Positions 5,015 to 26,600 of a stretch of 64,000 nucleotides of DNA are shown here, piece by piece. The notes beneath the pieces were generated by a model that was not told where the DNA came from, ran no database searches, and saw only the letters and a list, made by a program, of their open reading frames with translations. Origin of the DNA: Pseudomonadota bacterium (GTDB taxonomy: Bacteria > Pseudomonadota > Gammaproteobacteria > Pseudomonadales > Oceanobacteraceae); NCBI GenBank assembly GCA_030145845.1, contig JAIXHJ010000002.1:248001-312000 (forward strand). The letters are read 5' to 3'. A program made the translations under genes and the position numbers. The stretch's first letter is position 1, and every line of letters starts with the position of its first letter.

Positions 5015-5022
5015 ACAGGAGT

Positions 5023-5039
5023 GGGGCGCTCTGCGCCCC
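5023..5039 (+). promoter_or_regulatory. Hairpin between the two tssC genes
   Basis: GGGGCGC-TCT-GCGCCCC forms a 7-bp G+C stem with a 3-nt loop, 9 nt after the first tssC stop codon. Only a poor T-rich stretch (CTGTTT) follows, so it looks like a weak terminator, attenuator or mRNA-processing barrier. It could make the second tssC gene less expressed than tssB and tssC. Function is inferred from structure alone. Confidence 0.5.
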
Positions 5040-5068
5040 CTGTTTCAGCAGTGATTAAGGGATCTGAT

Positions 5069-6586: not shown

Positions 6587-6587
6587 G

Positions 6588-7067
6588 ATGAAAGAATACC
6601 GCGAAAAACGCCTGATCCCACCGGTGCTGGATCGCCTGCTGGAGCAGAATCAGAATGCTGATTTCCGCCAGAGCCACCACATCGTACGCTGTATCCGCGA
6701 GAGCATCCGCCGGGATCTGGAGAACCTGTTCAATACCCGTTACTGCTGTGTTTCACCGCCACCGGAATACCGTAATCTGGACGATTCGGTGCTGAATTAT
6801 GGCCTGCCGGATCTGTCGACCATCAATATGACCACCTTCGATAACCGCAATGAATTCTGCCGCAAGATGGAAAAAACGATTCTGAAATTTGAACCCAGAA
6901 TCAAGACCGTTAAGGTGAAAACAGAAGCCGTGCTGGATAACGAAGATCCGACCATTCATTTCCGTGTTGAAGCCACACTGAATGTGAACCCACTGCAGGA
7001 ACTGATTATTTTTGAATCCATGCTTAATCCGGTCAATCAGACCGTCGATGTTTCGGAGATTTTCTGA
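6588..7067 (+). CDS. tssE: TssE, T6SS baseplate protein (gp25-like)
   Basis: A 159-residue gpW/gp25-family protein, homologous to the T4 phage wedge protein gp25. The typical run SIRRDLENLFNTR at about residues 37-49 is followed by LNYGLPDLSTINM, and the C-terminal half carries the EPRI and hydrophobic beta segment of the family. It starts 1 nt after the previous gene, and its TGA shares one base with the tssF ATG, so translation of the baseplate genes is probably coupled. Confidence 0.95.
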   Translation: MKEYREKRLIPPVLDRLLEQNQNADFRQSHHIVRCIRESIRRDLENLFNTRYCCVSPPPEYRNLDDSVLNYGLPDLSTINMTTFDNRNEFCRKMEKTILKFEPRIKTVKVKTEAVLDNEDPTIHFRVEATLNVNPLQELIIFESMLNPVNQTVDVSEIF

Positions 7068-8899: not shown

Positions 8900-10002
8900 T
8901 CGAGCAGCTGCAGTCAGAGCCGTATCGCTTCGATTTTTTTCAGGCGGTACGTTTGCTAGAACGGGCTGCTCATCAGCCTCAGGATGATGAGGAAATCGCT
9001 GCCGACAGCGTCGGCGGTCTTGCCCGTCCTGATCAGGAAGCCGTGCATTTCTCTGCTGATCCCGGACTGGCCTTCCACGGCAGTGATGTTACCCGGGTGA
9101 CACAGAAACGGATTCACAGCCGCGAAACGGAAGAATCATCCGTACTGCAGTGGCAGATGAATGTTGCCATGATGGGGCTGACCGGCAGTCAGGGGGTGAT
9201 GCCTTATGCCTTCAGCGAAATGGTGCTGGGTGAACTGCGTAAGAAAAACCGGGCGCTGAGTGATTTCTTTGATCTGTTCAATCACAGAATCATCTCGATG
9301 TTTTATGAAGCCTGGCATAAATACCAGATGGTGCCGGAATACGAACGGGCGCAACAGAACGGTTCACTGAAAAATGACCTGTTTACCGAATCCCTGTTAT
9401 CCATTTCCGGCCTGGGGTTGTCAGAGCTCAGATTCAGGACCGCCGTCAGTGATGAACACATGGCCCGCTATGCCGGCCATCTGGGGCGCGGTATCTGTTC
9501 AGCCGAATCCCTGCGCAGTGCCATCGAAGGTATGTTTGGCTTTGATACCCACATTGAGCAGTTCCGTGGTGAATGGTACGAGCTGCCGGAAGATGTGCGC
9601 TGCCGCCTGCCGGACGAGGATCACCCGCAGGGGGTTAACAATCAGCTGGGCATGAGTACCGTGATTGGTTCGGTCTGTTATCAGATTCAGAACAAATTTG
9701 GTGTGGTGATTACGCCACGGTCAAAAGATGAGTTTATGTCTCTGGCGCCCGGCTCGAAGACACTGGAAGAACTCAGATCCTTTATCCGTATGAGTGCCGG
9801 CAGTGAACAGGACTTTGAAATTGAAGTACGTCTGAACGATGACAACCTGTCGCTCAGAAACCTGCTGGAAAGCGACGGAAATATGGGGCTGCTGGGCTGG
9901 AATACCCACGTGAACCCGGAAAACCTCGACGGGAAAATGATTTCAATCCGGTTGTCGCAGGAAATACCGACGCCGCTTGATGCATTGCCGATGGCCTATT
10001 AA
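8863..10002 (+). CDS. tssG: TssG (VasB), T6SS baseplate wedge protein
   Basis: A 379-residue TssG. The N-terminal YRFDFFQAVRLLERA, the central GSQGVMPYAFSEMVL and DFFDLFNHRIISMFYEAWHKY blocks are diagnostic. TssG bridges two TssF copies in each wedge. The gene begins inside tssF behind GGAGAG, so the two are probably translated together. A 41-bp gap separates it from clpV. Confidence 0.96.
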   Translation: MATTRRRKSLNLIEQLQSEPYRFDFFQAVRLLERAAHQPQDDEEIAADSVGGLARPDQEAVHFSADPGLAFHGSDVTRVTQKRIHSRETEESSVLQWQMNVAMMGLTGSQGVMPYAFSEMVLGELRKKNRALSDFFDLFNHRIISMFYEAWHKYQMVPEYERAQQNGSLKNDLFTESLLSISGLGLSELRFRTAVSDEHMARYAGHLGRGICSAESLRSAIEGMFGFDTHIEQFRGEWYELPEDVRCRLPDEDHPQGVNNQLGMSTVIGSVCYQIQNKFGVVITPRSKDEFMSLAPGSKTLEELRSFIRMSAGSEQDFEIEVRLNDDNLSLRNLLESDGNMGLLGWNTHVNPENLDGKMISIRLSQEIPTPLDALPMAY

Positions 10003-10043
10003 TCAGTCCGTTAATCAACCGGATAAGACAAGGAACCCAACCT

Positions 10044-12704
10044 ATGATTAACATTAATCTGAAGTCGCTGGTCGACAAGATGTCACCCTATATGCGTGAC
10101 TCGCTGGAAGGCGCTGCGGGTCTGTGCCTGGCCTATAACCAGTACAATGTTGAGCTGGAACACTGGCTGCTTAAACTGCTGGATATTCCGGATACGGATT
10201 TTGTCCAGCTGCTGGAAAAACACGATGTGAATCCCGCCGATCTGGCCAAACAGCTGGCAGGTGTCATCGCGCGCTTCCGCAATGGCAGCACACGCCCGGC
10301 GGCACTGGCGCCATCCATCGTTGATGCGGCCAAAAATGCCTGGATGCTGGCATCGGTTGATTATCAGCACGGCATGATCAGCTCCGGTCATCTGCTGGCA
10401 GCATTGCTGCTGGAAGACAGCTCGCGCCGCCAGCTGCTGGAAAGCTGCCCGGCACTGAAAGCCATCGCGCCGGAATCCATCCGTGAAACTGCCCGTGCCA
10501 TCTTCGGTACCACAGGTGAGACCGATCACCTGGTGAAGGGCAATGAACCGGGTGCCGGTAATGCCGGAACCGCCAATGTCGCGGCGTCGAAAACGCCGGC
10601 ACTGGATAAGTACACGGTTAACCTTACTGAGCGGGCGAAAAACGGCGAGATTGATCCGGTGCTGGGGCGTGATGAAGAAATCCGCCAGTGCATTGATATT
10701 CTCACCCGTCGGCGTCAGAACAACCCGATCATGACCGGGGAAGCGGGTGTCGGTAAAACCGCTGTGGTTGAGGGCTTTGCGCTGCGTATCGCCGCCGGGG
10801 ATGTGCCTGATCCGCTGAAAAATGTGGCCGTACGGACACTGGATCTGGGGCTGCTGCAGGCCGGTGCCAGTGTGAAAGGCGAATTTGAAAACCGTCTCAA
10901 ATCGGTGATTGAAGAAGTCCGCGCTTCTGTCACACCGATTATTCTGTTTATCGACGAAGCCCACACCATGATCGGTGCCGGTGGTAAAGAAGGGCAGGGC
11001 GATGCCGCCAACCTGCTGAAACCGGCTCTGGCCCGTGGTGAGCTGCGCACTATTGCCGCCACCACCTGGGCTGAATACAAAAAATATTTTGAACGTGACC
11101 CGGCTCTGACCCGCCGCTTCCAGGTGGTGAAAGTGGAAGAGCCATCGGAAGAAAAAGCCATTGATATGATGCGTGGTATTGCTGAATCCCTGCAGCAGCA
11201 CCACCATGTCCGCATTCTGGATGAAGCCATCGTGGCGTCGGTTAAATTATCCCACCGTTATATTCCCGGCCGGCAGCTGCCGGATAAATCCGTCAGCCTG
11301 CTGGATACCGCCTGCGCGCGCGTGGCTCTGAGCCAGTCTTCCACGCCGGGCGCAATTGAAGATGCCGGCCGCCGTATTCAGCGCGCCAGCATCACCATTC
11401 ATAAACTGGAACGTGAAGCCGCGGCGACCGGCGAGCACGAAGAACGGCTGGCCGCTCTGTATGAAGAAAAGCAGACCGCGGAACAGGAACTTGCACAACT
11501 GGAAAACCAGTATCAGCAGGAAAATGAACTGATTACCCGCATCCGCGAATGCCGTGATCAGATTGACAAAAACTTCCTGAATAAGGAAGAAGACAAGCTG
11601 CCGGCAGCGGAAATCGACCAACTCAAACAGCAGCTGAAAGCGCTGACTGCTGAGCTGATGGAGATTCAGGGTGAAACCCCGCTGATGCAGGCCAACGTGG
11701 ACGAGCAGGCAATTGCCGAAGTGATTGCCAACTGGACCGGTATTCCGGTCGGCAAAATGGTCAGCGATCAGATCACGGCAGTGAAAACCCTGGCCGACCG
11801 ACTGGGTAAACGGGTGATTGGTCAGCCTCATGCATTGGAAGCCATCGCCCAGGTGATCCGGACTTCCCGCGCCGGGCTGACCGACCCGCGTAAACCGATG
11901 GGGGTCTTCCTCTTCTGTGGTACCAGTGGTGTCGGTAAAACCGAAACCGCGCTGGCGCTGGCGGATGAACTGTTCGGCGGTGAACAGAATATCACCACCA
12001 TCAACATGTCGGAGTTCAAGGAAGAGCATAAGGTTTCCATGCTGCTGGGCTCCCCTCCGGGTTACGTCGGCTATGGTGAAGGCGGTGTGCTGACCGAAGC
12101 CGCCCGCCGTAAACCATACTCAGTGATTCTGCTGGATGAGATGGAAAAAGCGCATCAGGGCGTACAGGATATTTTCTACAACCTGTTCGACAAGGGCACG
12201 ATCAAGGATGGTGAAGGGCGCGATATCGACTTCAAAAATACCATCATCATCATGACCTCAAACGCCGGTGAGGATGCCATCCGCGCGATCTTCAATCAGG
12301 TGGAAGAAAAACCCGATCCGGAAGTTCTGCTGGACAATATCCGTCCTTACCTGCTGCAGAGTTTTAAGCCGGCTTTTATGGGCCGGGTCAACACCATCGC
12401 CTATTACCCGCTGGACGATGAAAACCTGATGGAAATTGCAGCCATCAATATGCGAAAAATCGAAAAACGGGTATACGAGAAATATGGCGCTCCCTTCACC
12501 TACGATGAAGATGTGCTGGTTAATATTGTTGCCCGCTGCCAGGAATCGGATACCGGTGCGCGTAATATTGAAACCATTCTCAGCCGCACCCTGCTGCCGG
12601 CACTGGCATCCGAATGCCTCGACAGAATGGCCAACGGCGAAGAAATCAGCAAAGTACACGTTGGTGCAACGGAGGATGGCGACTTCACTTATGAGGTGGC
12701 CTGA
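10044..12704 (+). CDS. clpV: TssH (ClpV), AAA+ ATPase that recycles the T6SS sheath
   Basis: An 886-residue Clp/Hsp100-family ATPase. It has a Clp_N-type domain at about residues 1-160, a first AAA+ module (Walker A GEAGVGKT near 232, Walker B ILFIDEAHT near 300), a coiled-coil middle region near 440-540, and a second module (Walker A GTSGVGKT near 626, later LLDEMEKAH). The N-terminus INLKSLVDKMSPYMRDSLEGAA is that of ClpV rather than housekeeping ClpB. ClpV unfolds TssC in contracted sheaths so that subunits can be reused. It is the last gene of the locus in this window and is followed by an intrinsic terminator; hcp, vgrG, tssJ, tssK and tssL are not seen here. Confidence 0.96.
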   Translation: MININLKSLVDKMSPYMRDSLEGAAGLCLAYNQYNVELEHWLLKLLDIPDTDFVQLLEKHDVNPADLAKQLAGVIARFRNGSTRPAALAPSIVDAAKNAWMLASVDYQHGMISSGHLLAALLLEDSSRRQLLESCPALKAIAPESIRETARAIFGTTGETDHLVKGNEPGAGNAGTANVAASKTPALDKYTVNLTERAKNGEIDPVLGRDEEIRQCIDILTRRRQNNPIMTGEAGVGKTAVVEGFALRIAAGDVPDPLKNVAVRTLDLGLLQAGASVKGEFENRLKSVIEEVRASVTPIILFIDEAHTMIGAGGKEGQGDAANLLKPALARGELRTIAATTWAEYKKYFERDPALTRRFQVVKVEEPSEEKAIDMMRGIAESLQQHHHVRILDEAIVASVKLSHRYIPGRQLPDKSVSLLDTACARVALSQSSTPGAIEDAGRRIQRASITIHKLEREAAATGEHEERLAALYEEKQTAEQELAQLENQYQQENELITRIRECRDQIDKNFLNKEEDKLPAAEIDQLKQQLKALTAELMEIQGETPLMQANVDEQAIAEVIANWTGIPVGKMVSDQITAVKTLADRLGKRVIGQPHALEAIAQVIRTSRAGLTDPRKPMGVFLFCGTSGVGKTETALALADELFGGEQNITTINMSEFKEEHKVSMLLGSPPGYVGYGEGGVLTEAARRKPYSVILLDEMEKAHQGVQDIFYNLFDKGTIKDGEGRDIDFKNTIIIMTSNAGEDAIRAIFNQVEEKPDPEVLLDNIRPYLLQSFKPAFMGRVNTIAYYPLDDENLMEIAAINMRKIEKRVYEKYGAPFTYDEDVLVNIVARCQESDTGARNIETILSRTLLPALASECLDRMANGEEISKVHVGATEDGDFTYEVA

Positions 12705-13233: not shown

Positions 13234-13467
13234 ATGATTAAGTGTCATTTGTCTCGCATCATGGGCGAGAAAAAGTTGAAGATTGCTGATGTGGCTCGTG
13301 ACACGGGTATCAATAGAGGTACTATCACCAGGCTCTATCAGGAAACTGCCGTGCGTGTAGAATTTGATGTGTTGGAGCAGCTTTGCCGATATCTGGAGTG
13401 TGATATCTCTGACTTGTTAGAGCTACAGGCTGAGGCTGCAACCAATGAAGGAAGCGACCGCAAGTGA
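13234..13467 (+). CDS. Xre/Cro-type transcriptional regulator at the head of the defence island
   Basis: A 77-residue helix-turn-helix protein. The layout is that of small YozG/Cro-like regulators: KLKIADVARDTGINRGTITRLYQ is the HTH (about residues 14-35) and VEFDVLEQLCRYLECDISDLLEL the family's C-terminal half. Its TGA overlaps the GTG start of the methyltransferase gene (GTGA), so the two are co-transcribed. It probably controls the island through the GATCTT dyads just upstream, a common arrangement for restriction-type genes that need timed expression. The ribosome site is weak. Confidence 0.85.
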   Translation: MIKCHLSRIMGEKKLKIADVARDTGINRGTITRLYQETAVRVEFDVLEQLCRYLECDISDLLELQAEAATNEGSDRK

Positions 13468-16229
13468 ACGCTGTTGAAATTGAAGTAGCCATTTCTGATC
13501 TGGCGCAACAGCCATTTGATGCTGAAGAATTCCCTTATGAGTTTCTGCGTGCCTTCGGGAACAAAGAAACCACCATCAAAAAACTCAGATCCGGCAGTAC
13601 CAACAAGTCCGATGTTGGCGGTGTGCTGCAGCGAAACAATATCCATATCCTCGTCAGCGAGCGGGGCCAGGTTGCCGAGGCGTTAAAAGCGCTGCGTGAC
13701 AGCCCGGCTACCGCCAAAAACAAAGTGAAGTTCATTCTGGCGACTGACGGTGAAACTTTTGAGGCCGAAGCGCTCGATAGTGGTGAAACTGTTGCCTGTG
13801 AATACACCAAATTTCCGGATCACTTCAGTTTCTTTTTACAACTGGCAGGTATCAGCACGGTAAAGCAGATACGTGAAAATGCCTTTGATATCCGCGCCAC
13901 CAGTCGTTTAAACCGCCTATACGTCGAGTTGCTGAAAGATAACCCGGAATGGGGCAGCGCTGCCCAGCGCCATGAAATGAACCATTTTATGGCGCGCCTG
14001 ATCTTCTGTTTCTTTGCCGAAGATACCGACATCTTTAATGGTAATGATCTGTTTACCGCCACCATCGAACAGATGAGTGCGCGCGACAGTTCCAATACCC
14101 ATGAAGTCATCAGCGAAATGTTCCGGGCGATGAACACAAAAATCGCTGATCGGGCAACGTCGGGCTTGCGCCCTTGGGCAGATCAATTCCCGTATGTAAA
14201 TGGTGGTCTGTTTTCGGGCAGTACCCTTTCCGGCGAAATAGAGGTACCGCGCTTCAGCAAAATCGCCCGCTCGTATCTGCTGCACATCGGTAACCTGGAC
14301 TGGACCCAGATCAACCCGGATATCTTTGGCTCGATGATTCAGGCGGTCGCCGATGACGAAGAGCGTGGCGAACTGGGCATGCACTACACCAGTGTGCCCA
14401 ATATCCTTAAAGTGTTGAATCCGTTGTTTCTGGATGATCTGCGTAGCAAGCTCGAAGAAGCCGGTGACAACGCCCGCAAACTGTTAAACCTGCGCAAGCG
14501 TCTGGAGCGTATTCGTGTGTTCGACCCGGCCTGTGGCTCGGGCAATTTTCTCGTCATTGCCTATAAGCAAATGCGCGAGATTGAAAACACCATTAACGAA
14601 CGCCGGGGCGAGGCCGGGCGTAAAAGCGATATTCCACTGAATAACTTTCGTGGTATCGAACTACGGGATTTTTCTGCGGAAATCGCCCGCCTTGCGTTGA
14701 TTATTGCCGAGTACCAGTGCGACGTCAGTTATCGTGGCCAGAAAGAAGCGTTGGTGGAGTTTTTACCATTGAACAACCAGAACTGGATCACCAGCGGCAA
14801 TGCTCTGCAGGTCGACTGGGAATTGGCCTGCCCAGCCGAAGGCACAAGTGTAAAGCTCTATGCGGATGATCTGTTTGAAACCCCGTTAGATCAGAGTGAA
14901 ATCGACTTCGAAAACGAAGGCGGCGAGGTCTATATCTGTGGCAACCCGCCGTATCTTGGGTCCTCACAGCAGTCGAGAGAGCAGAAGGCCGACCTGGAAA
15001 CGATTTTTGATAAGCGAGTAAAAAGCTGGAAGTCGCTCGATTATGTCGCCGGCTGGTTTATGAAGGCCGCCGACTATTGTGCACGCCATACCGCGAGTGC
15101 CGCTTTCGTATCCACCAACTCCATTTGTCAGGGGCAGCAGGTACCGATTTTATGGCCGGAGGTATTTTCAACTGGCTGTCAGATTGAATTTGCTCATACC
15201 TCATTTAAGTGGGCTAACCTTGCCGCTAATAATGCGGGCGTGACGGTTGCTATTGTCGGAATTTCAGCAGTAGTTAGTAATATTAAGAACTTGTTCTCTA
15301 CGGGTGTTGATGGTCAGGTTATAGAGAAGAAATGCGACTTTATAAATGCGTATCTGGTATCTAGTAGTAATATTTTTATCTCAAAATCTTCTAGGTCCAT
15401 ATCTGGATTGACTGAAATGAGCTATGGTAATTATCCCGGTGATGGAAATTATTTGACTTTAAATAGAGTAGAGCGAGAGAGTTTAATAGATAGCTACCCT
15501 GAAAGTGAATTTTTAATTCGTCCAGTTTATGGTGCGCAAGAGTTTATAAAAGGCCTAGTTAGGTACTGTTTGTGGATTGATGATGAGTTTTTAGAATTAG
15601 CTAAATCAGTACCAGAAATAAAAATTCGAATCTCCTCAGTAGAAGAACATCGTAATAGAAGTAAGGATATATCTTTAAATAATCTGGCATATAGGCCGCA
15701 CCAGTATAGAGACCGAAAAAGTGCTAAAGGGCATCTCCTGTTAGTTCCTACTGTATCATCTGAGCAGCGTGAATATGTGCCAGTAGAGCTCAAAGATGCG
15801 GTGGCAGTTACAACAAATCAAGCCTTTGCATTGTACGACGCCCCTCTCTGGAATATGGCCCTGATCGCCTCCCGTATTCATCTGGTCTGGATCGGGACGG
15901 TCTGTGGGAAAATGAAAACAGATTTCCGTTATTCCAATACGATGGGCTGGAACACCTTCCCAGTGCCTAAACTGACGGAGAAAAACAAAGAAGACCTGAC
16001 CCGCTGCGCAGAAGATATTCTGCTTGCCCGTGAACGCCACTTTCCGGCGACGATTGCTGACCTGTATAAACCTGAAGATATGCCCGCTGATCTACGCGCC
16101 GCTCATGAACGCAACGATGAAGTATTGGAACGCATCTACATTGGTCGCCGCTTCCGCAATGACACCGAGCGGCTGGAAAAGCTGTTTGAGATGTACAGTA
16201 AGATGACCGTAGATAAAAAAGGAGCTTAA
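13464..16229 (+). CDS. MmeI-like class I DNA adenine methyltransferase (restriction/defence type)
   Basis: A 921-residue SAM-dependent DNA methyltransferase laid out like MmeI/type IIL proteins: N-terminal domain (about 1-150), helical spacer, catalytic domain with motif I FDPACGSGNFL near 353 and motif IV CGNPPYLG near 493 (NPPY, N6-adenine type), a target-recognition domain (about 560-790), and a C-terminal domain with MGWNTFPVPKLTEK. I see no PD-D/ExK nuclease signature in the N-terminal domain, where MmeI has one, so it probably only modifies DNA. The recognition domain is visibly AT-rich, with AGA, AGG and ATA codons unlike its flanks, which suggests replacement of that segment. Start is GTG at 13464, overlapping the regulator stop. 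An AlbA-type gene follows after 11 bp. Confidence 0.88.
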   Translation: MNAVEIEVAISDLAQQPFDAEEFPYEFLRAFGNKETTIKKLRSGSTNKSDVGGVLQRNNIHILVSERGQVAEALKALRDSPATAKNKVKFILATDGETFEAEALDSGETVACEYTKFPDHFSFFLQLAGISTVKQIRENAFDIRATSRLNRLYVELLKDNPEWGSAAQRHEMNHFMARLIFCFFAEDTDIFNGNDLFTATIEQMSARDSSNTHEVISEMFRAMNTKIADRATSGLRPWADQFPYVNGGLFSGSTLSGEIEVPRFSKIARSYLLHIGNLDWTQINPDIFGSMIQAVADDEERGELGMHYTSVPNILKVLNPLFLDDLRSKLEEAGDNARKLLNLRKRLERIRVFDPACGSGNFLVIAYKQMREIENTINERRGEAGRKSDIPLNNFRGIELRDFSAEIARLALIIAEYQCDVSYRGQKEALVEFLPLNNQNWITSGNALQVDWELACPAEGTSVKLYADDLFETPLDQSEIDFENEGGEVYICGNPPYLGSSQQSREQKADLETIFDKRVKSWKSLDYVAGWFMKAADYCARHTASAAFVSTNSICQGQQVPILWPEVFSTGCQIEFAHTSFKWANLAANNAGVTVAIVGISAVVSNIKNLFSTGVDGQVIEKKCDFINAYLVSSSNIFISKSSRSISGLTEMSYGNYPGDGNYLTLNRVERESLIDSYPESEFLIRPVYGAQEFIKGLVRYCLWIDDEFLELAKSVPEIKIRISSVEEHRNRSKDISLNNLAYRPHQYRDRKSAKGHLLLVPTVSSEQREYVPVELKDAVAVTTNQAFALYDAPLWNMALIASRIHLVWIGTVCGKMKTDFRYSNTMGWNTFPVPKLTEKNKEDLTRCAEDILLARERHFPATIADLYKPEDMPADLRAAHERNDEVLERIYIGRRFRNDTERLEKLFEMYSKMTVDKKGA

Positions 16230-16240
16230 GGACAGCCGTT

Positions 16241-17911
16241 ATGAGCAATACAGTCATCCCCGCATCTGAATCCCTCACGGTCGAATTTAAAAGCGACCGC
16301 AAGCGTCTGCATGATGATGAGCTTGTACAGGCTTTGGTGTGCTTAGCCAATACAGAAGGTGGTGAATTGTGGCTGGGTGTTGAAGATGACGCCACGCCAA
16401 CCGGCCTGCATGCAGATCATGTGAATTTAACCGGCTTGCCGGGGTTAATTGCTGCCCGCACGTCACCTGCGCTGCAGGTCAAGGTTGAGTCTTTTGATGT
16501 CAATGGCGTGATTGTGGCCCGTATTCTGGTGTCTAAAGCAACGCACTCTGAAATTGCCACAACGTCTGGCCAATATTTACATCGTCGTATTAAACAGGAT
16601 GGCACGCCTGAATGTGTTGCCATGCTGCCACATGAACGCTCCAGCCGGTCTTCCAGTATTGGTATTTCTGATGCCTCTGCACAGGTTGTAGCTGGGGCAA
16701 CGGTTGCCGATTTTGACCCGATTGAACGCGAGCGCCTGCGCCAGGCAGTGCAACATTATGGTGGTGATCGGGTATTGCTGGAGCTGGACGACGAACAATT
16801 GGATGCTGCACTTGGGTTTACTGCCCGGTCGGCCGCTGGTGAGCGCCTGCCAACACTGACCGGCTTACTGGTGATTGGCCGGGAAATGGCGATTCGTGAT
16901 TTTGTGCCCACCCATGAGCTGGCGTTTCAGGTACTAGAGCGGGAAGACGTTCGTTTTAATGAGTTCCGGCGGTTTCCTTTATTAAAGGCGCTTGAGTGGT
17001 TAGAAACCAACTTCCGTCCGTATAACCCTGAGCGTGAAATCCAGGTGGGTTTGTTCCGCGTGCCCGTACCCATGGTGGATATGGGCGCGTTCCGCGAGGC
17101 GGTCGCTAATGCGTTGGTGCACCGCGATTATCATCGCCTTGGTGCGGTGCATGTGCGTTTAAACGATAACAGCCTGACCATCAGTAACCCCGGAGGGCTG
17201 GTAGATGGGGTGACGATCGGTAACCTTCTCAGTACCGAGCCACGCCCGCGTAACCCCAGATTAGCGGATGTGATGAAGCGCATCGGTGTGGTTGAGCGCT
17301 CGGGCCGAGGGGTCGATAAGATTTATCGCGGTATGTTGCGTTTTGGTCGTCCGCAACCCGACTACAGCAGGACGGATTACAACAACGTGATTTTGCGCCT
17401 GGAAACGGTGGAGGCTGATGAAGTCTTTCTGCGTTTAGTGATCGAGCAGGAAAACCAGCGGGGCAGTTTGCCCGTAGATAGCTTGATCGTGCTTTCGGCA
17501 CTAAAAGGCCAGAAGCGTATGAACGTGGAAGAGCTGGCCGGGCTTGTTCAGCAGGATGTTGCTGTTGCTAAACGCACCGTCGAGTCACTGGTTGAAGCCG
17601 GATTGGTAGAAGCACATGGCAAGACCCGTGGTAGAAGTTACACCTTATCTGCAGCCATGTATCAGGCTAAGGGTGATAAAGCTGCGTATACCCGTCAGGC
17701 GGGCTTTAGCAAACTGCAGAATGAGCAGATGGTTCTGAATTACGTTCAGCAACACGGTCAGATTCGCAGATCCGAAGTTATGGAGTTGTGTCACTTGACC
17801 AAAGATCAGGCGGCTCAACTGCTTAGCGCGCTGAAGAGTGAAGGTCATATTGTTCAACATGGTGAACGGCGGTGGGCGTACTATTCATTTGGTGATGCTA
17901 AGGGTGAGTAG
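16241..17911 (+). CDS. AlbA_2 / GHKL-type ATP-binding protein with winged-helix tail
   Basis: A 556-residue protein of the group often annotated as RecG-like or Schlafen AlbA_2 ATP-binding proteins. The N-terminal AlbA_2 domain shows VEFKSDRK and LVCLANTEGGELWLGVEDD (about residues 13-50). A GHKL-like ATP-binding block follows at about 282-340 (FREAVANALVHRDYHR, then LTISNPGGLVDGV and RSGRGVDKIYR). The C-terminal third looks like two winged-helix units. Such proteins occur in defence islands and as regulators; the precise role here is unknown. It could be a regulator or a DNA-binding partner of the methyltransferase upstream. A tandem repeat array starts 10 bp after its stop. Confidence 0.82.
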   Translation: MSNTVIPASESLTVEFKSDRKRLHDDELVQALVCLANTEGGELWLGVEDDATPTGLHADHVNLTGLPGLIAARTSPALQVKVESFDVNGVIVARILVSKATHSEIATTSGQYLHRRIKQDGTPECVAMLPHERSSRSSSIGISDASAQVVAGATVADFDPIERERLRQAVQHYGGDRVLLELDDEQLDAALGFTARSAAGERLPTLTGLLVIGREMAIRDFVPTHELAFQVLEREDVRFNEFRRFPLLKALEWLETNFRPYNPEREIQVGLFRVPVPMVDMGAFREAVANALVHRDYHRLGAVHVRLNDNSLTISNPGGLVDGVTIGNLLSTEPRPRNPRLADVMKRIGVVERSGRGVDKIYRGMLRFGRPQPDYSRTDYNNVILRLETVEADEVFLRLVIEQENQRGSLPVDSLIVLSALKGQKRMNVEELAGLVQQDVAVAKRTVESLVEAGLVEAHGKTRGRSYTLSAAMYQAKGDKAAYTRQAGFSKLQNEQMVLNYVQQHGQIRRSEVMELCHLTKDQAAQLLSALKSEGHIVQHGERRWAYYSFGDAKGE

Positions 17912-17920
17912 AATGGTTAT

Positions 17921-17990
17921 AAGTTCCTATGAGTTTCTATGAGTTCCTATGAGTTCCTATGAGTTCCTATGAGTTCCTATGAGTTCCTAT
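17921..17990. repeat. Seven tandem copies of a 10-bp unit (GAGTTCCTAT)
   Basis: Seven head-to-tail 10-bp units lie between the AlbA-type gene and the helicase: AAGTTCCTAT, GAGTTTCTAT, then five exact GAGTTCCTAT copies, followed by GAG. The first two units each differ by one base, so the array grows cleaner toward the helicase. It is non-coding here. Perfect short tandem arrays change copy number by slippage, so this could alter mRNA spacing or a binding-site count between the two halves of the module. Confidence 0.9.
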
Positions 17991-17999
17991 GAGGCGTTG

Positions 18000-18059
18000 T
18001 TCGAGATTCCGCTCGAAGCAATTCGACGATATTCAACTGTCAAGGACTCCTTAACAGTT
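18000..18059. promoter_or_regulatory. Two inverted repeats upstream of the helicase gene
   Basis: TTCGAG-ATTCCG-CTCGAA at 18000-18017 is a perfect 6-bp dyad. At 18035-18059 a 25-bp dyad (AACTGT arms, then AAGGA pairing with TCCTT around one central base) has a single mismatched pair. Both lie between the 10-bp repeat array and the helicase start at 18136. They may be protein-binding sites or an RNA hairpin that divides the operon; no T-tract follows the second, so it is not a typical terminator. Confidence 0.55.
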
Positions 18060-18135
18060 CGGTTACAAACACCAATGGCGGGCATGAGGCCTGTTTAATC
18101 AGCCAGGGCAACTTTTAAACATTCAGGCGAAGCGT

Positions 18136-20217
18136 ATGAATAAGAATGTTCCTTCTGTGTCGGTATCGTATGCACAGAGCGGTAAGACCAACAAATCCAA
18201 CGAGTTAGGCATGCGCCCGATGCAGGAGCGTGCCTATGAGTATCGGGGTGAGCAATATCTGCTGATCAAGTCGCCACCGGCCTCAGGTAAGAGCCGGGCT
18301 CTGATGTTTATTGCACTCGATAAGTTGCACAATCAGGGCTTACGCAAGGCGATTATTACCGTGCCTGAGAAGTCCATTGGCTCCAGCTTTGCCGATGAAC
18401 CGCTGACGAAGTTCGGCTTCTGGGCCGACTGGCACGTTGAGCCGAAGTGGAACTTGTGTAACAGCCCCGGCGAAGGCAGCAAAGCCGATTCGGTAGGGAG
18501 CTTTCTGGCCGGTGACGATCAGGTGCTGGTGTGCCCGCACGCGACGTTTCGCAATGCGGTTGAAAAGTTTGGTATCGAGGCGTTTGACGGCTGCCTGATT
18601 GCGGTCGATGAGTTCCATCATGTGTCCGCGAACCCGGAGAACCGTTTGGGTGCGCAACTGGCCGAGCTGATGGCACGCGATAAGGTGCATATTGTCGCGA
18701 TGACGGGGTCGTATTTCCGTGGCGACGCTGAGGCGGTACTCGCCCCTGAAGACGAAGCGCGTTTTGAGTCGGTTACCTATACCTACTACGAGCAACTCAA
18801 TGGCTATGAGCACCTGAAGACGCTGGATATTGGTTACTTTTTTTACACCGGCCCGTACGCGGATGACCTGCTGAAAGTGCTCGACCCGGATGAGAAGACC
18901 ATTATTCATATTCCGAGTGTCAACTCGCGTGAAAGCACCAAAGATAAAATCCGCGAAGTGGAGCATATTATTGAAGAGCTGGGCGAATGGCAGGGTACGG
19001 ATGACAACACGGGCTTTCAGTTAGTTAAGGCAAAATCAGGTCGTATTTTGAAAATCGCTGATTTGGTGGATGATGATGCCAGCAAGCGTGACAAGGTGTC
19101 TGCGTCGCTCAAAGACCCAACTCAGAAGAACAACCGCGATCATGTCGATATTATTATTGCCCTGGGCATGGCGAAAGAAGGCTTTGACTGGATCTGGTGC
19201 GAACATGCGTTAACGGTGGGGTATCGTGCGAGTCTGACCGAGGTTGTCCAGATCATTGGTCGTGCCACCCGCGATGCACCGGGTAAAACCAAAGCCCGCT
19301 TTACCAATTTAATTGCCGAACCAGACGCCAGCGAAGACGCGGTGGCCGAAGCGATTAATGATACGTTAAAAGCGATTTCGGCCAGTTTGCTGATGGAGCA
19401 GGTGCTGGCTCCACGCTTTGAGTTTCGGCCAAAAAATCCGACCAACGAACCGACTCCGGGCTTTGATTACGGTGACGAGGGTTATAAACCGGATAAAACC
19501 AATGTTGGCTTTAATCAGGAGACGGGCCAGTTTCAGATTGAAATCAACGGTCTGGTCATGCCTAAAACCGAAGAAGCCACACGTATCTGTCGCGAAGATC
19601 TTAACGAAGTGATAGCGACCTTTGTGCAGGACAAGCCGACCATAGAACGCGGCTTGTTTGATGAAGAGACCGTGCCGCAGGAACTCACTCAGGTACGCAT
19701 GGGCAAGATCATTAAAGAGCGCTACCCAGAGCTGGATGATGAAGATCAGGAGGCCGTACGTCAGCATGCGATTACGGCGTTAAACCTGATTCAGCAGGGT
19801 AAACAGGTGGCGCTGGATATCGCCGGGCAGGATGGCATGTTGACTGATCCGGGGGCCCCCGGCGAGCCTGGACCGAATACGGCGCTGATTCAGGGGATTC
19901 GTAAGTTTTCGATGGACGTGCGTGAGCTGGATATTGACTTGATCGATAGTATCAATCCATTCAGCGAGGCGTATTCGATTCTGTCGGTCGCGATGAATGA
20001 AGATACGTTAAAGCAGGTCGCCGCGGCGATCGCGGCGAAGAAGACCCGCCTGACCCCAGAAGAAGCGAAAGAGCTGGCATTACGGGCAATAAAATTCAAG
20101 AAGGAGCGCGGACGTTTACCGTCTATAAATGCGCAGGATGCCTGGGAACGAACAATGGCCGAAGGTGCAGCTGCCTTCGTTCGATTTAAAGATGAGGGTC
20201 GCTACGATGGATCTTGA
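18136..20217 (+). CDS. DEAD/DEAH-box superfamily 2 helicase of a defence module
   Basis: A 693-residue SF2 helicase. Walker A is SPPASGKSRA near residue 46, motif II is VDEFHH near 157, motif III-like MTGSYFRGD near 189, and motif VI QIIGRATRDAPG near 371. The core resembles type I and type III restriction translocases, but no nuclease domain is fused to it. The C-terminal ~300 residues are mostly helical and end with a short block, LALRAIKFKKERGRLPSINA, like the helicase-associated repeats. The next gene overlaps its last 11 nt and encodes a GIY-YIG nuclease, the likely cleaving partner. ATP-driven translocation or DNA unwinding is expected from the family; the target is unknown. Confidence 0.88.
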   Translation: MNKNVPSVSVSYAQSGKTNKSNELGMRPMQERAYEYRGEQYLLIKSPPASGKSRALMFIALDKLHNQGLRKAIITVPEKSIGSSFADEPLTKFGFWADWHVEPKWNLCNSPGEGSKADSVGSFLAGDDQVLVCPHATFRNAVEKFGIEAFDGCLIAVDEFHHVSANPENRLGAQLAELMARDKVHIVAMTGSYFRGDAEAVLAPEDEARFESVTYTYYEQLNGYEHLKTLDIGYFFYTGPYADDLLKVLDPDEKTIIHIPSVNSRESTKDKIREVEHIIEELGEWQGTDDNTGFQLVKAKSGRILKIADLVDDDASKRDKVSASLKDPTQKNNRDHVDIIIALGMAKEGFDWIWCEHALTVGYRASLTEVVQIIGRATRDAPGKTKARFTNLIAEPDASEDAVAEAINDTLKAISASLLMEQVLAPRFEFRPKNPTNEPTPGFDYGDEGYKPDKTNVGFNQETGQFQIEINGLVMPKTEEATRICREDLNEVIATFVQDKPTIERGLFDEETVPQELTQVRMGKIIKERYPELDDEDQEAVRQHAITALNLIQQGKQVALDIAGQDGMLTDPGAPGEPGPNTALIQGIRKFSMDVRELDIDLIDSINPFSEAYSILSVAMNEDTLKQVAAAIAAKKTRLTPEEAKELALRAIKFKKERGRLPSINAQDAWERTMAEGAAAFVRFKDEGRYDGS

Positions 20218-21424
20218 TGATCTGCGTGCAGAGCTTGATGAGTATGCAAAACCGGAGAAAAAACAAACGTTGTCAGCGAAAGAGCAGCGTATTGTGGCCG
20301 GTTTTGAAGACATACAGCGCTTTTACGATGAGCACAACCGTATTCCGCAACATGGTGAAGGTGGCGATATTTTTGAGCGCTTGTATGCCACGCGTTTAGA
20401 TCGTTTGCGTGCATTAACAGAGTGCGCAGAGTTATTAACGCCTCTGGATCATCAGGGGATACTGAACGGGACTGCTGAATCGACTTCGTTGGATGCAGCG
20501 ACCAGCGTAAGAGAAGAACCACCGGGTTATGGTAATGACGAATCTTCTGGCCCCAGCGATGATGAGCTTCTGGCTGAGTTGGGTGAGATTGCTGGTGGTT
20601 CATTAACCGAGCTTAAGCATGTGCGCAGTGCGGCGCAAAAGCGTGAAGTCGACGAAGTAGCTAAGCGTGAAGTCTGTGAAGATTTTGACGACTTTCAGCT
20701 GATTTTTGAACGGGTGGAGCGCGAGATTAAAAATGGATTACGCGTGACCCGACGTTTTAAAGAAGATGCCAGCATTGAGCGAACCAATCTGTTTATTCTG
20801 GGTGGTCAGATGGCGTATGTCGCAGAAGTCGGCGAGACCATTAAAGCGCCAAACGGAGATAACGATGCCCGCTTGCGCGTGATTTACTCCAACGGCACTG
20901 AGAGCAATATTCTGCGTCGGTCACTACAGCGTGCGCTGTATAAGGACGATACTGGCCGTCGTGTGACCGAGCCTGATGCAGGCCCTTTGTTCAGCAACCA
21001 GTGGGAAGATGAAGACGTTGAAAGCGGAACGATTTATGTGCTGCGCAGTCAGTCGGATCATCCGACGGTTGCTAGCCATCGCGAGTTAATTCATAAGATT
21101 GGCGTCACTGGGGGTAAGGTAGAAACACGAATCGCCAATGCAGAAAACGATGCGACGTATTTATTGGCAAAAGTTGATGTGGTAGCGACCTATAAACTTG
21201 CTGGCATTAACCGCACCAAGCTTGAGAACCTGCTACACCGCATGCTGGCCCCGGCGCAACTGGAGCTGGTGATTAATGACCGCTTCGGCAAGCCAGTAAA
21301 GCCACGGGAGTGGTTCTTGCTACCACTGAAGGTGATAGATGAAGCCGTTGAGCGAATCCGGACGGGGCGGGTCGAGGGCGTAGTGTATGATCCGGAACAA
21401 GCCACCCTGGTGGAGTCGAGTTAA
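20207..21424 (+). CDS. GIY-YIG nuclease-domain protein (T5orf172/Mug113 type)
   Basis: About 405 residues, with a C-terminal GIY-YIG domain of the T5orf172 type: IYVLRS near residue 276 (GIY position), HKIGVTGGKVETRI near 296-309 (YIG position and catalytic Arg), LENLLHRML near 338 (catalytic Glu), and KPREWFLLPL near 364. The N-terminal FEDIQRFYDEHNRIPQHGEG resembles the end of the helicase protein. I chose the ATG at 20207, which has GAGGG at 20194-20198 and gives MDLDDLRAELDEYAKP; a longer frame opens at 20129 but lies deep inside the helicase gene. Stop to jetA start is only 24 bp. It is probably the nuclease of the module. Confidence 0.85.
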   Translation: MDLDDLRAELDEYAKPEKKQTLSAKEQRIVAGFEDIQRFYDEHNRIPQHGEGGDIFERLYATRLDRLRALTECAELLTPLDHQGILNGTAESTSLDAATSVREEPPGYGNDESSGPSDDELLAELGEIAGGSLTELKHVRSAAQKREVDEVAKREVCEDFDDFQLIFERVEREIKNGLRVTRRFKEDASIERTNLFILGGQMAYVAEVGETIKAPNGDNDARLRVIYSNGTESNILRRSLQRALYKDDTGRRVTEPDAGPLFSNQWEDEDVESGTIYVLRSQSDHPTVASHRELIHKIGVTGGKVETRIANAENDATYLLAKVDVVATYKLAGINRTKLENLLHRMLAPAQLELVINDRFGKPVKPREWFLLPLKVIDEAVERIRTGRVEGVVYDPEQATLVESS

Positions 21425-21448: not shown

Positions 21449-22951
21449 ATGCAGGATAACCCAGCACGACAACTCGCCCGCAAATATATCAGTGCGCGTC
21501 ATAATCATGCGGCATGGCGCCTGCTTGCCTCTCCGCGTGCGCCGTTGATTGCCGGTTGCCTGTCTGTTTTGTTTGATGGGGCTCAGGATGGTGTCGCGGA
21601 AGAAGATGCGCTGCAGGCGCTGTCTGATATGTTGTCGTCGTTTGCGACGCACGATGAATTTAACATCGATACAGATCAGGTGCTGCAACAGGCCGGACGC
21701 GAACTTCGTGAATGGATTAAGCGCGGGCTTGTGATTGAGCGTGGTCAGCGTATTTATGAAACCGATGCACTGCGCAGTGCGATGCATTTTGTGGAGTCGC
21801 TGGATAATCGCATTATGACTTCCACTGCCTCGCGTTTGTCGGTTGTTCAGCAGCAGATTGAGCAGCTTGAAACCGGTATGAACCCTGACCCTGCCAGTCG
21901 TGTGGCGTCAATTAAGCGCAAAATCCGTCAACTTGAATATGAATTGGCCGATGCCGAGGCCGGTAATATTCCCGTCTTCTCGGAAGCTCAGGCTATTGAA
22001 GCAATACGGGAAGTATTTGCACTGGCAACAGGTTTAAGTGCTGATTTTCGCCGGGTTGAAGATTCCTGGCGGGAGGCTGATATGCAGTTGCGACAAAAAG
22101 TGGTGGCTGAAGGCACGCACCGGGGAGACGTACTGGACCGGCTTCTTGATAGCCAGGAAGCTCTTCTGAACACATCCGAAGGACAAGTCTTTGACGCATT
22201 TCTGCGCCAACTGCGTGAAACGACTCGACTTGAAGAAATGAACCATCGTCTGCGTACGATACTGGCACACCCAGCTGCGCGTAAGGCGCTTAGCAGGAGC
22301 CAGATAACGGACCTGAAATGGCTCCGTCTTAAACTCACCCAGGAAAGCCGCACTGTTATCACAGCGAGATCTCGCAGCGAGCAGGATGTCCGCAGTTTTA
22401 TTAAAACCGGATTGGCCAGTGAACATCATCGCGTAGGTATTTTACTGGCTGAGGTATTTAAAGCTGCCCAAGGCATGAATTGGGATAAGCAGAGCATCAG
22501 GAGGCAGGCGTCCTCACTACCTCCGCTTGGGTTTAACACCTCTAACCTGCCAGTGATAGAGCGCCTTCGCTATCGGGCTGCGCCTCAGGGCGATGACTCT
22601 GCATTGGATTTCTCGCAGCCGGATGTCGGTCTTGAAGGCGTGGACGAGGAATTTTGGACCGCGTTGGATGGTTTGGATCGGGAAGCATTGATTACCAGCA
22701 CCCTTGAGCGTATTCGGGTCGCGGGAAAGCCGGTGATGTTGTCGGAACTACTTGATCTGCTGCCACCCGCCCATGACCTTGAGACGCTGGCTTTATGGAT
22801 CAGTATGGCCAGAGAGGCTGAGATTCAGATTATTTCTGAAGATACGGAGTGTTTCGAATTAACCGATGAACATGGCCGGCGCTGGGAATACACGGTGCCC
22901 AGGGTTTCTATGGATGAGCAGGCGTTAGCTGGGGTGGATTGGGATCTTTGA
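21449..22951 (+). CDS. jetA: Wadjet type I JetA (DUF3375), kleisin-side condensin-like subunit
   Basis: A 500-residue DUF3375 protein starting MQDNPARQLARKYISARHNH, typical of JetA in type I Wadjet. JetA is the kleisin-like (MukF-like) partner of the JetC SMC protein. Winged-helix-like N- and C-terminal parts flank a helical region with LSVVQQQIEQLETGMNPDPASR near 133. The GGAGG at 21439-21443 fits the ATG. Its TGA overlaps the jetB ATG (TGATG). With JetB, JetC and JetD it makes a complex that detects circular DNA by loop extrusion and cleaves plasmids. Confidence 0.93.
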   Translation: MQDNPARQLARKYISARHNHAAWRLLASPRAPLIAGCLSVLFDGAQDGVAEEDALQALSDMLSSFATHDEFNIDTDQVLQQAGRELREWIKRGLVIERGQRIYETDALRSAMHFVESLDNRIMTSTASRLSVVQQQIEQLETGMNPDPASRVASIKRKIRQLEYELADAEAGNIPVFSEAQAIEAIREVFALATGLSADFRRVEDSWREADMQLRQKVVAEGTHRGDVLDRLLDSQEALLNTSEGQVFDAFLRQLRETTRLEEMNHRLRTILAHPAARKALSRSQITDLKWLRLKLTQESRTVITARSRSEQDVRSFIKTGLASEHHRVGILLAEVFKAAQGMNWDKQSIRRQASSLPPLGFNTSNLPVIERLRYRAAPQGDDSALDFSQPDVGLEGVDEEFWTALDGLDREALITSTLERIRVAGKPVMLSELLDLLPPAHDLETLALWISMAREAEIQIISEDTECFELTDEHGRRWEYTVPRVSMDEQALAGVDWDL

Positions 22952-23691
22952 TGAAAAGCATATTTGATGAATTGACGGCGGCAGATGGTGAAACTGATCA
23001 AGCGAATGTCGATCAGCCTGCTACACAGAAGACACTATCGACAGAACCTGATCCGGATCGTACCGACGCTTCTTTGCGTGCCGCCGCACAGCAGTTACTT
23101 GCCTCGGGCCTGATTGAGGCTACGACAGCCGGGCATCTATATCAGCAATTACTGACTTCAATGGAGGACGTTAATCGTATTCTGGAGCCACTGGACTTAT
23201 ATGCTCGCGCCGATGATGTGCGTGGTCTGGTGTATCTTGCCGTGCGTAAAAGGCCGGACGATGCTGAAGATGAATGGTCGCATCCGTTGGTGCGTCGTCA
23301 GCGCCTGACGCTGGAGCAGTCTTTGCTGGTGGCGATTTTACGTCAGTATTTCATCAGTTATGAGCAGGACAGCGGAATCGGGCGCGGAGAAGCGCGGGTC
23401 ACTCTGGATGAGTTAATGGCCCAGTTGCAGGTATATCTCGGTGATCCAGGCAGTGAGAGTAAAGAGCGTAAGCGTCTGAGTAATTTACTTGATCAATTAA
23501 AAGGTCATGGCTTGGTGGGAACGCCAGATGCGCATGGCCGGGTCGAGATTCGCCCTATGATTGCGCACGTTGCCAATCCTGAAAATCTTAAATCATTACT
23601 GGCAGATTTTATTGCCATGAATGCGGAAAGTCATACGGCTGATGGTTTAGATGATACGGATATCCATACGGATGAAGAGGAACAAGGATGA
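22951..23691 (+). CDS. jetB: Wadjet type I JetB (DUF4194), KITE-like subunit
   Basis: A 246-residue DUF4194 protein. Recognisable parts are LLASGLIEATTAGHLYQQLL near residue 50, YARADDVRGLVYLAVRK near 85, and LRQYFISYEQDSGIGRGEARVTLDELM in the middle. JetB corresponds to the MukE/KITE subunit that binds the kleisin JetA. The tail is acidic (DDTDIHTDEEEQG). I took the ATG at 22951, which overlaps the jetA stop, over a TTG at 22939. The jetC ATG overlaps its stop (ATGA). Confidence 0.93.
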   Translation: MKSIFDELTAADGETDQANVDQPATQKTLSTEPDPDRTDASLRAAAQQLLASGLIEATTAGHLYQQLLTSMEDVNRILEPLDLYARADDVRGLVYLAVRKRPDDAEDEWSHPLVRRQRLTLEQSLLVAILRQYFISYEQDSGIGRGEARVTLDELMAQLQVYLGDPGSESKERKRLSNLLDQLKGHGLVGTPDAHGRVEIRPMIAHVANPENLKSLLADFIAMNAESHTADGLDDTDIHTDEEEQG

Positions 23692-26600
23692 GCACACAGG
23701 TCGTCATGCCGGGCTTTGAAGAGACCTTTCGCCTGTCGAAGTTGGAGTTGTTCAATTGGGGCGGATTTTCAGGCCCGCAAGAGGTTGAGTTTGACCCTAT
23801 GGGTACGGCAATTGTGGGGCCGACGGGCAGTGGTAAAACGACACTCATAGACGCGTTGATGACGCTGTTGACGGCCAATCCCAAATACAATCTTGCTTCA
23901 ACCGGTGGGCACGAGAGCGACCGTGACCTCGTTTCTTACGTAAGAGGGGTATCTGGGGCTGGGAATGGTTCGGTGTCGCAGGAACATGTGTTACGTCAGG
24001 GAAAAGTGATTTCTGGCTTATGTGCGACCCTGGATAACGGCGTAAAAACCGTAAAACTTGGCGCGGTGCTATCCATAGACGATACGAGTTTTTCCGCAAA
24101 GGATCTGAAAAAATATTGGATATTCTCTCAGTCAGAATCGATAAACGAAAAGGCTACTGACCAAGACCATTTGACAACCCTTCGCCAATGGCTCGAGCTG
24201 TATGATCAGGGTGGGAGTAAAGCACTAACGCGGGAAGGAAAGGTGAGCTCCAATCTGGCGGTCTATGCTGCGAAGAAAAATTATCTTGCCAGAGTCCGGG
24301 ATTATTTTGAGGTGGGGCAGAATGCGTTTGACCTGCTCAATCGTGCGGCTGGGTTAAAGCAACTTAACAGTATCGACGAAATCTTCAGGACTCTGGTGCT
24401 GGATGATGAATCACAGTTTCAACAGGCCGCCGAAGTCGCCAGCAGTTTTGATGACCTGAAAATTATTTATGAAGAGCTGGAGCTGGCTCGGCGTCAGATC
24501 GCTTCTCTTGAACCCGTTAAGAAATACTGGGACCAGTATGAGAAAGCCAAGATCGACCGTGACGATATGCGGCATTTACTCGCCGTACTTCCCGTATGGT
24601 TCGCTGAAGGTATGTATAAACGCTGGAAGGAAGAAGCGGAGCGTTTAAAGCGTCTTTCTTCAGAATGTACCGCTCGAAAAGCTGAGCTGGATGAAATATA
24701 TCAGTTAAAAACATCAGAAAAAGACGAACTCTATGCCCGTTACTTACGTTCTGGTGGTAACGATCTTCAGACCATTGAAGAACATATTACGTTGCTTGAA
24801 AAAGACGTTTACGCGTGTCGGGGCCGGGCAGATATTTATCTGAAAAAAGTGCAGTCTCTTGGGTTAGATGAGGATCTGACACGAGTGACCTTTGAGCGCA
24901 ATCAGGCACATCTGGATAACATTATCGAAAAACTGGAGCAGGCGTTCACTCAGGCAGAGCATCTTCATTTTACTTCAGGTTCTGAATTAATGGGGGTAGA
25001 GAACCAGTTCCGGGAACTCAGGGAAGAAATAAAAGAAGCTGAGAATGTACCGGGTTCGAACATACCCGGACAGTTCCTGAAGTTCCGGTCTGTGTTGGCA
25101 GAAGGCCTGGGGTTGCCGGAGTCGGAGCTGCCGTTCGTTGCGGAAATGATTCAGGTGAAGCCTGAGGCGGCAGAGTGGCACGGTGCTATTGAGCGGGCCA
25201 TTGGTAGTCACCGATTGCGTATCATGGTTCCTGAAAGTGATATGAAACTTGCATTGCGATGGGTTAATCAGCGTAACAACCAATTGCATGTCCGGCTGTA
25301 TGAGGTAAAGGTCGTCTCAGGTCAGACCGCCTTTTATGACGATGGTTTTACCCGGAAACTAAACTACAAAGCACACCCGTACAGAGAGGCCGTAAAAGAG
25401 CTTCTTGCGGGTATCGACCGGCATTGTGTATCAACCGCTGAGGAATTACAGCACACCCCTCATGCCCTGACCCGGGAAGGGATGATGTCGGGTAAGGCGC
25501 GTTTCTTTGAAAAACAGGACCAGAGGCGTCTGACAGATGACTGGATGACAGGATTCGATAATACGATTCGTCTGATGCAGTTAAAAAAGCGCTTAGAAAC
25601 TCAGGCAGACCAGCTTGCGGAACTTCAGGCCGTAGAACGAAAAAGGCGCTCTGATAAAGAAGAATGCCAGCGACAGTTGGCATTTGCGCAATCGCTTAAA
25701 GAAGTCACTTTCGACAGTATCAATGTTGAATCATTGGAAGCACAGATCCGGTTGAAGAAAGAGCATCTGGAAAATCTGATGTCACCGGATTCGGATGTTG
25801 CAAAGATCAAAGCGGAACTTGAAAAGATAAAACAGGAATGCAGCAACATTGATGATCAGCGCAACACACTGATCGAAGAGAAGACGAGGGCGGATACTCA
25901 ACTTGATATTGCTGAGGCCGAAGTTTCAAGGTTATTTGTGCTGGCTGAATCCGGACTGAAAAGTGACGATCGTGCGGTGATTGATCGCTATTTTAAGACG
26001 ATTGCGAAAGCAGGTGACGATCTTATTGCTACGGCAGAACTGCAGCACATGAAGTCTTTGGAAGAGACAAGTCTACTTGATGTGCGTCAGCGCCAGGAAA
26101 AGCTGGATAAGCAGGTTGGGGATCTTTCAAAACAATTGGTCAGGGCGATGGAAGTTGCCAAACGCGAGGACAGAGGGGCTTTGGTCGAGGCTGGATCTGA
26201 TGTAGAAGATGTTCCTGCTTATCTTGAACGCCTGCATACATTGACTGAAGAAGCATTGCCGGAGAAACAGAAGCGTTTCCGCGAGTATCTGAACCGTTCA
26301 TCCGATGATAGTGTGACTACTTTGCTTGAAGGCCTGGAAGGAGGTGTCGCCAAGATCCGGGATAAACTGGAAGACGTCAACTACACGCTTCGTCGGGTAG
26401 ACTTTCAGCCTGGGCATTATTTGCAGCTTATTGCCAACGACGTTGTTCACGAAAGTATCAGAACATTTTCCCGCCAGATGAGAGAGTTACGCGCAGCTCA
26501 GCTGGCTGCTGATGACGGTGAAAGTCATTACCGGGCCTTACAGGTGGTGGTGGCCTCACTGCGTAACCATTATGAGAAGAGCCATACTGCACCAGCAAAG

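Follow-up and report, generated by a model that had tools for sequence, protein, structure and literature searches.

A DnmA-YeeB-YeeC operon with a variable gene slot between methylase and helicase in an Oceanobacteraceae genome

Gene content of the locus

Within a 64,000-nucleotide stretch of an Oceanobacteraceae genome (GCA_030145845.1, contig JAIXHJ010000002.1, positions 248,001 to 312,000; the window), five genes on the plus strand make up a putative restriction-modification locus. The first encodes a putative regulator of the Xre family (13234-13467; Pfam HTH_26, E = 2.5e-23), and its 3' end shares 4 nt with the start of a gene for a DnmA/YeeA-type, MmeI-like adenine methylase of 921 aa (13464-16229; GTG start; Pfam MmeI_N, MmeI_hel, MmeI_Mtase, MmeI_TRD and MmeI_C). 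Residues 634-837 of this protein (15363-15974) are the hypervariable target recognition domain (Pfam MmeI_TRD). There follows a gene for a 556-aa protein (16241-17911) with a Schlafen-type AlbA_2 domain (SLFN_AlbA_2), a GHKL ATPase domain (HATPase_c_4) and two winged helices. Part of the gap behind it is filled by a tandem array of 7.6 copies of the 10-bp unit TATGAGTTCC (17918-17993; Tandem Repeats Finder score 138). The last two genes encode a YeeB-type superfamily 2 (SF2) helicase of 693 aa (18136-20217; weak Pfam DEAD/ResIII matches, with homologues annotated as DEAD/DEAH helicases and one as YeeB) and a YeeC-type T5orf172/GIY-YIG nuclease (20207-21424; Pfam T5orf172, E = 1.2e-13, and MUG113). 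The longest frame of the nuclease opens at 20129; the alternative start at 20207, which overlaps the helicase gene by 11 nt, is favoured because short overlaps are annotated in most of nine plasmid relatives (one, L013, has a 3-nt gap). Predicted promoter sites numbered 4 against 9.5 expected, and terminators 13 against 8.7.

This layout agrees with a description made earlier from the letters of the window (the original prediction), which proposed an Xre regulator and four co-directional genes that divide modification, helicase and nuclease functions among separate proteins. The methylase matches the MmeI structure 5hr4 with E = 1.2e-132, and a regular-expression scan of its first 170 aa found no D-x7-13-[DE]xK nuclease string; among 110 methylases longer than 700 aa, 12 have such a string in this region, at scattered positions. 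The helicase motifs GKS (Walker A) and DEFHH are present in all 125 aligned helicases, the window's included, and QIIGR in 121 of them. The Tyr, Arg and catalytic Glu columns of the GIY-YIG domain are invariant in all 133 aligned nucleases longer than 250 aa.

Comparison with known restriction systems was made in part with PADLOC, a check that the original prediction had suggested. Only the methylase was strongly placed, in a type IIG model; the AlbA_2/GHKL protein had weak matches to pAgo-associated and CARF models, the helicase had one weak match to PbeA (E = 1.2e-5), and the nuclease had none. Filing the methylase alone as type IIG was rejected, given the negative motif scan, which is a scan of sequence only. 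Its methylase, spacer and recognition domains are homologous to those of MmeI (type IIL) and type IIG enzymes; in contrast to these, cleavage and translocation are encoded by separate genes and the N-terminal domain of the methylase has no nuclease signature. The locus differs from type I systems, with no HsdS or REase_I match among the eight proteins scanned by PADLOC. BREX was rejected, as PglX models scored far below the cut-off and no PglZ or BrxC was matched among the same eight proteins, and so was DISARM, for which these proteins gave only partial similarity to DrmMI and no match to DrmA or DrmB. As far as these scans reach, the proposed mismatch with restriction types I-IV, BREX and DISARM holds.

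Identity of the three-gene core

The methylase, helicase and nuclease genes are the DnmA(YeeA)-YeeB-YeeC cluster, a known but little-studied restriction operon. The identification is drawn from the annotation of homologues, gene order and the literature on Bacillus subtilis. A tblastn search of plasmids with the helicase matched 264 records, and in 153 of these a single location covers at least 80% of it. Plasmid homologues are annotated, in this order, as DNA methyltransferase, helicase and GIY-YIG nuclease. In one plasmid record the helicase is annotated as restriction-modification component YeeB, with a DNA methyltransferase before it and a GIY-YIG protein after it. Homologues of the operon occur in Pseudomonadota, Bacillota (L014 and L015, with helicases 45% and 44% identical), Cyanobacteria and Actinomycetota, and in further phyla to judge by record titles. 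Close nucleotide relatives are rare in Escherichia coli, where megablast of the four-gene stretch matched 3 of 5426 genomes, each partially and over the methylase, and in phage records only two short fragments of the helicase turned up. Many plasmid records of Acinetobacter baumannii have partial yeeB matches; pieces of yeeA, yeeB and yeeC have been reported inside Tn2006/Tn2009 beside blaOXA-23 (PMC9258068).

Several published observations bear on this family. DnmA of B. subtilis produces N6-methyladenine (m6A) at GACGAG and has no MmeI endonuclease motif (PMC7261158); the same paper credits Morgan 2009 with the earlier suggestion of a type I-like set. Genes of the yeeB and yeeC types are the commonest neighbours of the methylase, at positions +1 and +2 (PMC9973331); the main text of PMC11797060 has no match for yeeB. 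The window shares with this cluster its co-directional MmeI-like methylase without the endonuclease motif, SF2 helicase and T5orf172/GIY-YIG protein, its defence-island setting, and a yeeB gene directly followed by yeeC on one strand. It differs in the Xre gene in front and in the Schlafen-type gene between methylase and helicase. The commonest published arrangement, which we did not take as defining, has the helicase at +1 from the methylase, and here one gene intervenes. Since the three genes already carry names (PMC7261158, PMC9973331), the original prediction's view of an unnamed module does not hold for the core. The fixed position between methylase and helicase accommodates swappable accessory genes, many of them unrelated to one another. 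The available part of the published neighbourhood analysis (PMC9973331) does not describe this slot, and we recognized no account of it in a partial literature search that mostly covered papers outside subscription.

A slot between the methylase and helicase genes

Two surveys were used to examine the slot. Set A comprises 139 helicase loci: 9 from plasmids, 80 from genomes, 43 from a viral collection, 6 from related genomes, and the window. The genome loci are the best 80 of 556, which biases the set towards near relatives. A methylase was found upstream in 127 loci, and the other 12, which are cut off no more than about 1.1 kb upstream of the helicase, were dropped; a nuclease was found in 135, the exceptions being two locus ends (L083, L126) and two truncated helicase matches (L131, L138). 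L017 and L143 are one locus present twice, and the helicases of L114 and L116 are identical. Set B was drawn evenly from whole genomes with a helicase cut-off of E = 1e-50 or better, which 23 of 398 genomes from the phylum and 12 of 369 from the class passed (the window's own genome is counted in both). It holds 30 of the 32 distinct other hits, with the partial matches G507 and G310 left out, and none is near-identical to a locus of set A. A slot was called occupied when the gap was at least 120 nt, so the counts below depend on tblastn boundaries and on that threshold.

In set A the gap between methylase and helicase is at least 120 nt in 66 of 127 loci; none of 135 helicase/nuclease gaps is that long. 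After dereplication at 97% helicase identity, 60 of 112 slots are occupied. On a helicase tree of 125 rows (L128 and L138 were omitted because their helicases are short), occupied slots make up 62 of 106 in the near clade versus 2 of 19 among distant helicases. Set B gives a similar picture: 15 of 30 slots are occupied, 14 of 20 where the helicase is at least 67% identical and 1 of 10 where it is more distant, and the helicase/nuclease gap reaches 120 nt in one locus (L194, 721 nt). Two loci of this set (L173, L174) have slots of about 7 kb in which many open reading frames (ORFs) separate the methylase match from the helicase, as though cargo genes had piled up there.

Genes in the slot are closely fitted to their neighbours. 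Of 63 occupied slots, 42 begin with a gene whose start shares exactly 4 nt with the end of the methylase gene; in 12 an occupant overlaps the helicase by 4 nt, and 9 have both overlaps. Where the slot is empty, the helicase itself overlaps the methylase by 4 nt in 28 of 61 loci. Most slot ORFs of at least 80 aa (70 of 77) are co-directional with the operon, and four occupied loci in set A (L066, L071, L108, L117) have no co-directional ORF of this size.

The occupants are diverse. Slot ORFs of at least 80 aa in set A fall into 33 clusters (blastp, E = 1e-5), a few of them antisense or spurious; about 30 are unrelated occupant clusters, among them predicted nucleases, toxin-antitoxin genes, AbiE and RhuM. 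Families were named from representatives, 20 proteins with Pfam and 10 with PADLOC. A YhcG/DUF1016 nuclease (PADLOC candidate PDC-S02) occupies seven loci; others hold RhuM (PDC-S05), two families of AlbA_2/GHKL proteins, BrnT, Gp49, PIN, AbiEii, DUF559, PDDEXK_4, GmrSD_N, CoiA-like and FRG proteins, and a weak second T5orf172. Representatives of recurrent families of 137, 260, 277 and about 288 aa have no significant Pfam or PADLOC match. A 337-aa family has no Pfam match and weak PADLOC matches only, with a PLD/HKD-like motif read by eye. The slot is also a convenient place to look for new defence effectors, with the four recurrent families that lack a significant match as a case in point.

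Turnover of the slot and of the recognition domain

Mapped on the helicase tree, slot content requires at least 54 changes, versus 62.9 when the labels are shuffled (standard deviation 0.96; lowest value 60 in 300 shuffles), and the occupied or empty state alone requires 28 versus 41.8. Content differs in 46 of 76 pairs of loci with helicases at least 90% identical, and in 6 of 17 pairs at 97% or more (duplicates included in both counts). The window and Thalassolituus maritimus provide an example: their helicases are 95% identical, the slot holds the AlbA_2/GHKL gene in one and a 277-aa protein gene in the other, and nucleotide homology stops where the methylase gene ends and returns about 80 nt before the helicase.

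The recognition domain of the methylase behaves in a comparable way and is the site of a second break in similarity. In 54 pairs with helicases at least 90% identical, median identity is 0.946 for the helicase, 0.89 for the N-terminal, 0.906 for the catalytic and 0.903 for the C-terminal part of the methylase, and 0.45 for the recognition domain. In the window this domain has a G + C content of 0.402, versus 0.513 for methylase residues 1-500. L144 and L145 have the same cargo and different recognition domains, and L011 and L056 have recognition domains 87% identical and different cargo. The two elements turn over much faster than the rest of the operon, and each can be exchanged independently of the other.

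Such rapid turnover points to a working system under selection, and this bears on the suggestion, made for B. subtilis, that the operon is a relic in which DnmA is an orphan methylase and the rest is non-functional. Deletions in B. subtilis gave no phage phenotype (PMC9973331), and transformation data were also negative (PMC9973331, PMC7261158), as a relic would predict. On the other side stand the catalytic motifs conserved across 125 helicases and 133 nucleases, the high rate of recognition-domain exchange, which suggests continued selection on specificity, and a preprint cited in PMC9973331, according to which deletions of dnmA and yeeB in Vibrio crassostreae raise sensitivity to some phages. 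We consider a relic improbable.

A Schlafen-type gene as cargo in the window

The window's AlbA_2/GHKL gene belongs to a family (AlbA1) carried by 7 of 127 loci in set A, five of them from the window's taxonomic family, and in all seven it lies between the methylase and helicase genes. A second AlbA family occupies the slot in two further loci (L032, L086), and a 61-bit match indicates that L094 probably holds a third; the 30 loci of set B gave no AlbA-like match that scored above 50 bits. The original prediction had treated this protein as the fourth member of a conserved set. Because joint conservation is confined to the other three genes, a four-gene system was rejected, and of the proposed conserved adjacency only that of the core three stands. 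The same view would make one machine of the four genes, with the AlbA/GHKL ATPase serving the restriction complex as a structural or regulatory subunit. The constant position of AlbA1 is what such a subunit would lead one to expect; the small share of loci that have it, the unrelated genes or empty slots of near relatives, and a 73% identical protein inside a type I operon make this very unlikely, in our judgement the least likely of the explanations considered.

That type I operon (L158; hsdM in two frames, hsdS) is one of several defence settings for these genes. Outside the DnmA-YeeB-YeeC operon, 7 of 9 neighbourhoods examined are defence-related: BREX (2), type I (2), type III (1), OLD/Gabija-like with SoFic (1) and Dsr1 (1). 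In the window's own genome (L166; C2:103000-118000), about 130 kb from the window, an AlbA_2/GHKL gene lies among BREX genes, between brxC and pglX. Schlafen proteins with a minimal histidine kinase and a winged helix-turn-helix have been described from BREX loci (PMC12839542) and have the same domain order; the difference is that the window's gene lies inside a DnmA-YeeB-YeeC operon.

A first structure model of the protein (9 sequences; predicted local distance difference test score 50) was poor and was dropped in favour of one built with 17 sequences. The N-terminal domain of the new model matches structures of Schlafen and SAMD9 tRNases. In alignments with two Schlafen chains (7fex, SLFN11; 5yd0), residues E10, E15 and D49 fall on the ESxxxEFK and GVDD stretches. 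The protein thus has the AlbA_2 fold and the three acidic residues that we took to define a Schlafen/AlbA_2 core, and RNase activity is predicted for it. Over its full length the fold matches DIP2311 (PDB 3lmm) at 23% identity, a protein of uncharacterized function.

Tandem arrays behind the cargo

Arrays of other 10-11-bp units are present at the place of the 10-bp array in L140, L141, L017/L143, L144, L145, L049, L030 and L029. In the main rival to an RNase role, the AlbA_2/GHKL protein would be a transcription regulator whose winged helices bind DNA near the window's 10-bp array and which holds back expression of helicase and nuclease until methylation is complete. The two C-terminal winged helices are in keeping with it, as are the position of the array between the AlbA gene and the helicase and the whole-length match to DIP2311, with a C-terminal domain that corresponds, below the cut-off, to a Pfam transcriptional regulator domain. 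However, similar arrays follow other cargo (the 277-aa protein in L017/L143, YhcG in L029), most loci are without an AlbA gene, and an Xre gene already heads the operon. In set A an Xre homologue was found by tblastn upstream of the methylase in the window, L017/L143 (one genome), L140, L141, L144 and L145 only, all from the window's family. Overall, a regulatory role seems a possibility to be kept in mind, though a doubtful one.

A similar-looking, 11-bp-phased motif that resembles TTTTGATCGGGTTTTGATC lies between cargo and helicase in L018, L032, L045, L086 and L094. The viral collection has the exact form in 13 stretches (L197-L209), mostly beside or between ORFs, where tblastn found none of the operon proteins, and none of 274 genomes of the class has it; the motif is for this reason not regarded as specific to the operon.

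Proposed biological role

The reading that we prefer, and hold to be rather probable, is that the locus is a DnmA-YeeB-YeeC restriction-modification operon with an exchangeable accessory gene in its slot, and that the slot gene here is a back-up RNase. DnmA would mark host DNA at a single adenine within an asymmetric site, and on unmarked DNA it would recruit the YeeB helicase, a step that we infer because deletion of dnmA is reported as harmless in B. subtilis (PMC7261158). YeeB would then move along the DNA, driven by ATP, and YeeC would cut through its GIY-YIG domain. Such a division of labour would be of a type I/ISP-like kind, spread over separate proteins.

The slot gene would stand outside this restriction machine. 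From its modelled fold and by analogy, the cargo in the window may be a Schlafen-type AlbA_2 RNase gated by the GHKL ATPase and tethered to DNA by the winged helices, which would stop translation once the restriction proteins are obstructed or cannot cope, in the manner of PrrC with EcoprrI (PMC3874165, PMC12707154). In both cases an accessory gene is embedded in a modification-restriction operon, and a translation-stopping back-up is what we propose here. PrrC differs as an ABC-HEPN protein encoded in a type IC hsd operon, in contrast to a Schlafen-type AlbA_2 protein with GHKL in an operon that is not type I; the guard role is suggested here by that analogy.

A more general proposal, which we rate as evenly balanced, is that the methylase/helicase junction is a dedicated exchange site and the operon a chassis on which two modules, the recognition domain and a fail-safe effector, can be exchanged. 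The effectors (Schlafen RNases, YhcG, RhuM, PLD-like, toxin-antitoxin and abortive-infection proteins) would be swapped gene for gene, often with seamless start/stop overlaps, and some would also serve in operons of type I, type III and BREX. The idea of restriction plus fail-safe is open to test through swaps that nature has made on almost identical backgrounds, such as that between the window and T. maritimus. The three-protein restriction machine itself is spread over several phyla and has been known mainly through a negative result in B. subtilis.

Neighbouring genes

Beyond the nuclease, a complete Wadjet type I operon (JetA-JetB-JetC-JetD; 21449-28179, plus strand; PADLOC), which the original prediction did not mention, starts 24 nt downstream. 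Nucleotide similarity to a locus of the same genus (L140) does not end at the nuclease and carries on into the Wadjet region. A tRNA-Arg gene (ccg; 28524-28600, minus strand) closely follows the Wadjet genes, a possible border of the island. On the other side, genes in 1-12704 resemble, when read by eye, a type VI secretion cluster, the last of them encoding a ClpV-like ATPase (10044-12704).
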